A stretch of DNA of 11,302 nucleotides. Origin: Nitrososphaerales archaeon TH5895. GTDB lineage: Archaea > Thermoproteota > Nitrososphaeria > Nitrososphaerales > Nitrososphaeraceae. Of this stretch, positions 9,351-11,260 are shown one piece after another. The notes under the pieces are model-generated. The model did no database searches, was not told the origin of the DNA, and saw nothing but the letters and a program-made list of their open reading frames with translations. The stretch is from NCBI GenBank assembly GCA_014523695.1, contig JAATVS010000504.1, forward strand, positions 1 through 11,302, in the 5' to 3' direction. The translations under genes and the position numbers were made by a program. Numbering within the stretch: the first letter of the stretch is position 1; every line of letters starts with the position of its first letter.

Positions 9351-9358
9351 TTTTATAT
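9351..9358 (+). promoter_or_regulatory. TATA box of tRNA-Glu
   Basis: TTTTATAT is centred about 28 bases before the first base of tRNA-Glu (9383), the normal position for an archaeal promoter. Confidence 0.6.
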
Positions 9359-9382
9359 GATGAATAACATGCAATGTGTTGA

Positions 9383-9488
9383 GCTCCGGTGGTGTAGTCC
9401 GGTTAAGCATTTCGCCCTCTCAAGGCGGAGATCCCGGGTTCAATCGGATCGCGGTCAATACCGCAACGGAACAAATCCCGGCCGGAGC
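9383..9488 (+). tRNA. tRNA-Glu(CTC), interrupted by a T-loop intron
   Basis: The acceptor GCTCCGG pairs with CCGGAGC; the D-stem GTGT pairs with GCAT; the anticodon stem TCGCC/GGCGG encloses CTCTCAA, anticodon CTC (9419-9421) for glutamate codon GAG. The T-stem halves CCGGG and CCCGG are present but the loop reads TTCAA, then 31 extra bases, then AT. Removing them restores TTCAAAT and a 75-base tRNA. No CCA is encoded. Without the intron the tRNA matches the consensus well, so it should be functional after splicing. Confidence 0.93.
9444..9474 (+). other. 31-base T-loop intron (between positions 58 and 59) of tRNA-Glu
   Basis: GTTC at the exon end pairs with GAAC near the intron end to make a 4-bp helix flanked by the 3-base bulges AAT and AAA, on opposite strands: the bulge-helix-bulge cut by archaeal EndA. 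Cutting after the second base of each bulge gives exactly the tRNA junction TTCAA/AT. The intron itself folds around GCGGT-CAAT-ACCGC. The splice register is fixed by the bulges; by sequence alone three registers give the same product. Confidence 0.85.
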
Positions 9489-9535
9489 ATGAAATATGAA
9501 TGTCTATTCAGGATTCAGTAGTCCGGTCATTCTCT

Positions 9536-9721
9536 TCATCTCTTCTGACATTGATTTGCCAGAATAATAGGGGGACTATCTTGCTCTTCATCATCCGGTA
9601 CGACTAGTGGAAGTAGATTACAAAGATTATCGTTTATAAATACAATGCATTCGAGCCGGTAGTCTTCAAAGCATGATTGTTCCAAAAGCATGGGACTACC
9701 GTTGTAATTAATGCTCTTCAT
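9536..9721 (-). CDS. Hypothetical small protein, 61 residues
   Basis: An ATG-started frame beginning 13 bases after the stop of the CxxC protein at 9735-9908, on the same strand, so probably co-transcribed with it. The protein has a helical-to-strand core (DYRLECIVFINDNLCNLLPL) and an acidic, proline-containing tail (VVPDDEEQDSPP). It has four cysteines without CxxC spacing. No ribosome binding site is visible. No family recognised; chance open frame is possible. Confidence 0.45.
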   Translation of the reverse strand: MKSINYNGSPMLLEQSCFEDYRLECIVFINDNLCNLLPLVVPDDEEQDSPPIILANQCQKR

Positions 9722-10173: not shown

Positions 10174-10390
10174 TGATAACTCCGACCTGGATCGGAAGTC
10201 GTCACCAAGGAATAGTGTCTCCCTTTACGCAGAATAGTGTCTCCCTTTACGCACATTCAAATTGTCCCGTAAACATCAAGTTCGTTCGCTATAGGAAATA
10301 ATCAATTCTCCAAACAGTTCTTAATATATAATGATGCAAGTGCGATAAGCATTGCATTACCTATTTCAAGTTTGAGCGTAATATGGTATC
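10174..10390. other. Non-coding interval with tandem duplication and short open frames
   Basis: Together with the pseudogene this is a 482-base gap between clear genes. It contains the 22-bp tandem duplication (10210-10253), an AT-rich TTAATATATAATG at 10321-10333 without an obvious downstream gene, and a 16-codon minus-strand frame (10302-10352) extending from a longer start-less open stretch next to the stop at 10391. Confidence 0.5.
10210..10253. repeat. Perfect tandem duplication, 2 x 22 bp
   Basis: The unit beginning GAATAGTGTCTCCC and ending TTTACGCA occurs twice without spacer or mismatch (10210-10231 and 10232-10253). Perfect identity suggests a recent duplication by slippage. The unit length is not a multiple of three. 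Confidence 0.95.
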
Positions 10391-10606: not shown

Positions 10607-11260
10607 TTATCCTTTGTCAAAACGTTGAATGTGCCCGGCACTTATCTCACTTTCTTGACGAAATCGGTTGTCCTTGAGGAGAAACTTCGAAGCTTTATAG
10701 TAGATAACCTCTCCTCTTCGCTCAATGACAGCTAGAACAGAGTTCTTTCCCATTCTGGCAGTCTGATCGATTAAGTCGTAGAGCGCCTCAATCTTTAGGT
10801 TGATCCCTTCGTTTAGTGCATACACCAAATATTTTGAAGGCTTTTTTTGATACTCGCCTCTTTCATAGACCCTGAAGTCGATGCCAAAGCCAAACCCATC
10901 TTTCACAACATATCCACGACTACGCAAATCGCGGTACACTAGAAACCTAGTAAGTATGCTAGGATCGTGCTTTAACATCTTTTTTATTAACTGCTCAAAC
11001 CCAATGTTGGTGTCTTCATTATTTTTTATTACCAACCTGTTTGTAAATGCTAAGTATAGAGCCTCGCAATGGCCAAGAGTGTATTCTGAGTCCTGTTTTT
11101 CACCGAACCCTTTTGATCTGAGCTGATCTTGGAATTTCGTTTCATTTACTATGATCTTGGTTTCCCCTGCTGGCATAGTCGCCTCGATCAAATATGATAC
11201 ATCAAGCTCTGAGCCCTCAATATCAGCGGACATAACGAATAAATCGGAGCCAGTCCACAT
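10607..11260 (-). CDS. endA: tRNA-splicing endonuclease EndA
   Basis: EndA cuts both exon-intron junctions of archaeal precursor tRNAs (and rRNAs) at bulge-helix-bulge motifs, leaving ends joined later by RtcB. The 217-residue length is close to the homodimeric family. The signature RFLVYRDLRSRGYVVKDGFG, then GIDFRVYERGEY, is clear at 105-137; an N-terminal domain covers 1-95, and SVLAVIERRGEVIYYK (174-189) is the family's C-terminal strand pair. Of the catalytic Tyr-His-Lys triad, Tyr132 (FRVY) and Lys172 (MGKN) are present but the His position is Pro141 (KKPSKYLV), with no other histidine between the Tyr and the C-terminal H210. The ATG at 11260 is used here; Met10 (11233) is an alternative given an A/T-rich tract upstream. 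Its likely local substrate is the tRNA-Glu intron. Confidence 0.93.
   Translation of the reverse strand: MWTGSDLFVMSADIEGSELDVSYLIEATMPAGETKIIVNETKFQDQLRSKGFGEKQDSEYTLGHCEALYLAFTNRLVIKNNEDTNIGFEQLIKKMLKHDPSILTRFLVYRDLRSRGYVVKDGFGFGIDFRVYERGEYQKKPSKYLVYALNEGINLKIEALYDLIDQTARMGKNSVLAVIERRGEVIYYKASKFLLKDNRFRQESEISAGHIQRFDKG

Follow-up and report, generated by a model that had tools for sequence, protein, structure and literature searches.

How can a functional tRNA arise from a gene whose T-loop is interrupted? In Nitrososphaerales archaeon TH5895 (genome G000), the gene for tRNA-Glu(CTC) lies at 9383-9489 on the + strand of the 11,302-nt stretch of DNA analyzed here (the window, which is the entire contig C382 of a 3.88-Mb assembly of 719 contigs that is 92% complete). 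The two strands of its T-stem are separated by 38 nt instead of the usual 7 and it thus carries an insert of 31 nt. The original prediction, made from the letters of the window, described a tRNA-Glu(CTC) with a 31-base intron in the T-loop at 9383-9488; this identification is borne out by the empty site and the conservation described below, and the start coordinate stands, whereas the end left out the discriminator A and has to be moved to 9489. The features on which the argument relies are as follows.

9352..9360, + strand: TATA-like box (TTTATATGA), read from the sequence, upstream of the tRNA gene
9383..9443, + strand: 5′ exon (acceptor, D-arm, anticodon arm, variable loop, T-stem 5′ strand, T54-A58)
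9438..9441, + strand: GTTC (positions 53-56), 5′ strand of the predicted central helix of a relaxed bulge-helix-bulge
9444..9474, + strand: predicted 31-nt intron at 58/59 (DNA-equivalent starts 9441, 9442 and 9443; empty site in L050-L053)
9469..9472, + strand: GAAC, 3′ strand of the predicted central helix, within the intron
9475..9489, + strand: 3′ exon (A59-T60, T-stem 3′ strand, acceptor 3′ strand, discriminator A)
10607..11260, - strand: tRNA-splicing endonuclease (EndA), predicted beta-type subunit, 217 aa (PF01974, PF02778)

The interrupted gene and its uninterrupted counterparts

Removal of the insert leaves a 76-nt tRNA that is identical at 76/76 nt to the uninterrupted tRNA-Glu(CTC) of G048, G037, G027 and G015 (L050-L053), which belong to the same family. 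Comparison over these 76 nt therefore indicates that removal restores a normal tRNA, as it should for a non-canonical intron lying elsewhere than at 37/38, and the claim that splicing would regenerate the T-loop TTCAAAT is matched exactly by the intronless genes. The original prediction had also called for a look at tRNA-Glu(CTC) in related genomes, and this revealed the insert in 5/5 genomes of the genus and in other lineages as well. Within the genus the exons have a single sequence, with 0/76 positions differing among the five genomes, while the introns differ pairwise at 2-7 of their 31 positions. The TATA-like stretch 5′ of the gene, a putative promoter judging by its sequence, is likewise identical in 5/5 genus genomes (L043-L047). 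It is because of the empty site and this conservation, more than because of the fold, that the insert is read as an intron.

A gene interrupted in this manner could instead be a pseudogene, in which the insert has ruined the T-loop and GAG codons are read by another tRNA, for example tRNA-Glu(TTC), which can in principle read GAG by wobble. In keeping with this, the Rfam tRNA model (RF00005) misses the gene at 9383-9489, reporting it neither in the window nor in a search of the genome; ARAGORN detected the anticodon of tRNA-Glu(CTC) and put the end of the gene at 9468. No tRNA-Glu(TTC) was found in the 92%-complete G000 assembly, though; G003 of the same genus has one, with an intron in the D-arm. 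Moreover, a pseudogene would not be expected to keep its exons identical in five genomes while the intron drifts, nor to keep the central helix described below or to share an insert of this kind, at this position, with other lineages, and we regard this explanation as very improbable. The original prediction had named a second, uninterrupted tRNA-Glu(CTC) as the finding that would reduce this copy to a pseudogene. In the assembly, from which a copy could be missing given its completeness and 719 contigs, the search returned one gene match and no second copy, and the 15-mer of the 3′ exon (9475..9489) occurs only once.

Junction pairing and the splicing enzymes

Four placements of the cut, after window position 9440, 9441, 9442 or 9443, give the same mature tRNA. 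In a bulge the cut falls after the second base, which places it after 9443, at position 58/59, and delimits the intron to 9444-9474; the rule thus favors, among the four DNA-equivalent placements, the T-loop position 58/59 named at the outset. Cutting at 55/56, 56/57 or 57/58 would leave the product unchanged, but the bulge rule and a 5′ bulge of 3 bases (AAT or AAA) in 10/10 T-loop introns of the family favor 58/59, which also still fits in G069 and the G067 group, where the intron ends differ. We therefore consider the other three placements unlikely.

The same early reading described a 4-bp GTTC/GAAC helix with 3-base bulges AAT and AAA. The helix holds, but the 3-base 3′ bulge does not, since G53 is common to the T-stem and to the GTTC/GAAC helix, so that a full T-stem and a full central helix are mutually exclusive. 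Either five T-stem pairs form together with three of the central helix or four form with four, and the 3′ bulge has 5 nt either way, giving bulges of 3 and 5 nt. When forced, the central helix lay 1.9-2.1 kcal/mol above the free minimum (G000, G032 and G069 folded), and the predicted minimum fold of the whole pre-tRNA is not a cloverleaf. Because of the sharing of G53, the 5-nt bulge and the cost of about 2 kcal/mol, the junctions as modeled carry a relaxed and not a strict bulge-helix-bulge, the strict form being one of 3-4-3 geometry with an intact outer helix.

The relaxed form can be drawn throughout the family, in that a 4-bp central helix can form in 10/10 T-loop introns, with G-U pairs in all three from the G067 group. 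The flanking helix beside it has 4/4 pairs in five of these introns, three in one and two in four; in G000 the helix adjoining the 5′ bulge has only 2/4 pairs. We compared the 10 family introns with 20000 shuffles each at fixed geometry, counting the shuffles that did as well as the intron itself (for G000, 4 pairs in the H helix and at least 2 in the h′ helix). This was reached by 266/20000 shuffles for G000 (range within the genus, 124-596) and by 3 to 29 of 20000 for the family's other three lineages, where central and flanking helices occur at the same geometry despite mostly unlike intron sequences. Pairing alone is thus only modest evidence for an intron in G000. Among five T-loop inserts folded from other families, those of G115, G119 and G120 pair the 5′ side of the T-loop with the insert, and those of G070 and G071 have predicted minima lacking this pairing.

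The genome contains two genes with a PF01974 (EndA) domain, one in the window and one on contig C419. The window product has Pro at the catalytic His position when aligned to the M. jannaschii EndA (1a79) and is probably a non-catalytic, beta-type subunit. The C419 product has its best sequence match in the A. pernix EndA (3p1z, E 7.7e-42); it keeps the active-site Tyr, His and Lys, and in the 3p1z alignment a Lys is aligned with the loop lysine K44 of A. pernix. These alignments identify it as the catalytic alpha subunit. An RtcB gene is located on C235. Both predicted hallmarks of an (alpha beta)2 EndA, i.e., separate genes for a catalytic alpha and a structural beta subunit and the loop lysine, are therefore found in this genome. 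Lys44 in the loop of the A. pernix enzyme is reported to confer broad specificity (PMC6379350), and Thaumarchaeota are reported to have an alpha2beta2 EndA, archaea of this kind being rich in intron-containing tRNA genes (PMC4090602); by analogy with that enzyme type, broad EndA specificity is to be expected here. The host alpha resembles the A. pernix (alpha beta)2 EndA (PDB 3p1z and 3ajv) in being its best match and in the loop lysine, whereas A. pernix is a crenarchaeote and the present host is not, the activity and assembly of the host enzyme being predicted from its sequence.

Together, these data point, with a probability of roughly 0.94, to a non-canonical intron at 58/59 of the sole tRNA-Glu(CTC) found, recognized through a relaxed motif, cut by an (alpha beta)2 EndA and joined by RtcB. 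In the pre-tRNA, GTTC of the T-stem and loop would pair with GAAC near the 3′ end of the intron to form the relaxed bulge-helix-bulge; we infer that the two EndA subunits assemble and cut after A58 and before A59, and that RtcB would then ligate the exon ends into a normal TTCAAAT T-loop.

Gene neighbors and a displaced copy

The original prediction took the nearby endA as a sign of splicing that goes beyond the canonical route. The neighborhood of tRNA-Glu was counted at 30 loci, each with no more than about 1.5 kb of flanking sequence. The endA-beta gene adjoins tRNA-Glu in 5/10 intron-bearing loci (L043, L045, L046, L047 and L049, in G000, G001, G002, G004 and G069) vs. 9/20 intronless loci (L056, L057, L065-L069, L071 and L072); it was not found beside the intron-bearing L044, where the contig ends, nor beside L048 and L062-L064. 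On these counts, a tie between endA nearness and the intron is rejected. Since the window endA is of the beta type and also stands beside intronless tRNA-Glu genes, its proximity is uninformative about the intron, and with the catalytic alpha gene on another contig this part of the prediction has to be given up: the adjacency is shared gene order and no sign of a special splicing route.

Convergent with tRNA-Glu, a C/D-box sRNA-like gene occupies 9511-9596 on the - strand, with boxes ATGATGA ... CTGG ... ATGAAGA ... CTGA and GGAT/ATCC ends; it was assigned according to the C/D box consensus and has no Rfam match at gathering score. A similar stretch lies 3′ of tRNA-Glu in many relatives, both intron-bearing and intronless. 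The sequence complementary to its D guide, TAGTCCGGT, is present in the 23S rRNA of G014 (LSU 878) and in the D-arm of tRNA-Glu; a second 9-base pairing run occurs at 2691 of the G014 23S rRNA, G014's own guide is different, and no rRNA was found in the G000 assembly. Elsewhere in the window, a 551-aa protein (1187-2842, + strand) has a GSGKT nucleotide-binding-like motif, and neither this protein nor the 221-aa ORF ending just 5′ of it (520-1185) has a Pfam match at E 0.01. Reading by eye, we also saw a 22-nt unit (GAATAGTGTCTCCCTTTACGCA) in two head-to-tail copies at 10210-10253, flanked by small ORFs with CxxC pairs. By the window endA, the nearest named records are Nitrososphaerales archaea at 3/4 loci and a Nitrososphaeraceae archaeon at 1/4.

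In G001 a second piece of the gene was found away from it: locus L093 (contig C56) has 71 nt at 2023-2093 that reproduce the intron, 3′ exon and trailer at 96% identity and begin one base 5′ of the 5′ splice site. Its sequence makes an integration scar possible. The stretch upstream, in which an ORF resembling CAP-domain proteins was recognized by eye, is unmatched in the four remaining genus genomes, and a stretch some 150 nt 3′ of the copy matches G000, G003 and G004. Separately, about 50 nt at about 2143-2194 of L093 recur in all five genus genomes, where more than one contig per genome matches, several in each case. The copy raises the question of whether the insert itself might be an att-site scar or the remnant of a mobile element, and not a spliced intron at all. 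It does resemble the integration-linked tRNA fragments described for Caldiarchaeum (PMC3293823); however, the exact empty site and the pairing at the junctions speak for splicing, the end of the tRNA is not repeated in G000, and reading by eye the 18 ORFs on C56 that reach 60 aa revealed no recognizable integrase, whereas the insertion reported at tRNA-Thr of Caldiarchaeum subterraneum codes for a recombinase (PMC3293823). A scar in place of a spliced intron is thus scarcely credible, although gain through an element would be compatible with its being a spliced intron.

Intron gain in the family and the known context

The distribution of tRNA-Glu introns was surveyed in 121 genomes, of which 107 had a match; 103 loci came from 83 of these 107, and 100 tRNA-Glu genes were read, leaving aside three unparsed loci (G091, G100) and further matches, among them four in G026 whose matched part is similar to the genes of genus g2. 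In the family, 10/59 CTC genes have a T-loop intron (5/5 in the genus and 5/13 in genus g12), 13/59 have one in the D-arm, and 36/59 have none. The D-arm cases are those of genus g2, where all 13 genes read carry the intron there rather than in the T-loop. Other families of the order have T-loop inserts in 6/14 CTC and 4/10 TTC genes. D-arm introns follow TGTAG or a similar sequence in tRNA-Glu loci of relatives (L074, L079-L084, L086, L118-L126) and in G000 itself, where the 34 RF00005 matches include such inserts in a Gln-like (L076) and an Asp-like (L078) gene; when all 34 were read, no other T-loop insert was seen. A search of G000 with the pattern GTTCAA...YAAATC gave 62 matches vs. 46 for a backward control and led nowhere.

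Four scattered lineages of the family thus have T-loop introns at the same tRNA-Glu site, and the sequences of these introns are mostly dissimilar. Likeness between introns was scored with the last 6 bases omitted, as the number of 2000 shuffles at least as good. Within the genus, none of 2000 was as good for the pair G000 and G004. Between classes, the counts were 104 (G000-G032), 187 (G004-G032), 1179 (G000-G069), 1468 (G004-G069), 743 (G000-G067), 935 (G004-G067), 401 (G032-G069), 293 (G032-G067) and 28 (G069-G067). The sequence likeness of G069 and G067, and weakly the borderline one of G000 and G032, speak against full independence of the classes. A tree of RtcB was built from 30 genomes searched, 28 of which had a match, giving 28 rows with those of G060 and G069 partial; second copies in G001, G002 and G013 were dropped, and 26 rows were scored, a D-arm intron being entered as absence of a T-loop intron. 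On this tree the T-loop intron state requires at least 4 changes, with 5 open forks. As a simpler reading, this one gene tree suggests repeated gain of a T-loop intron at one tRNA-Glu site, though an ancestral T-loop intron followed by many losses could also account for the pattern. More tentatively, and with considerable doubt on our part, 58/59 of tRNA-Glu might be a hot spot of intron gain in Nitrososphaerales with at least four separate gains, perhaps via recombination of mobile elements at this stretch, as the intron-bearing 3′ fragment in G001 hints.

Introns of this type are not new to the group. Thaumarchaeota are listed among the phyla with non-canonical tRNA introns (PMC3218864), and for tRNAscan-SE 2.0 a count of 107 such introns in Thaumarchaeota and the training of a phylum-specific intron model are reported (PMC8450103); these are of the same phylum and the same kind as the tRNA-Glu(CTC) intron, which, or kin of which, may be contained in the supplement of that paper. 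Caldiarchaeum subterraneum is likewise described as intron-rich, with tRNA introns in the D-, V- and T-arms and tRNA fragments elsewhere in its genome (PMC3293823). Among the titles and abstracts searched, we found none that names this tRNA-Glu(CTC) intron. It adds a clear example to a kind of intron already known in the group, with a mechanism that would be ordinary for the phylum, and established knowledge of archaeal splicing is unchanged by it. Near relatives have the site exactly empty, so that it provides a clean example for annotating tRNA genes of the sort that ARAGORN and the Rfam model mishandled here. The gains and losses at this single position across the family can serve as a testbed for models of tRNA intron gain.
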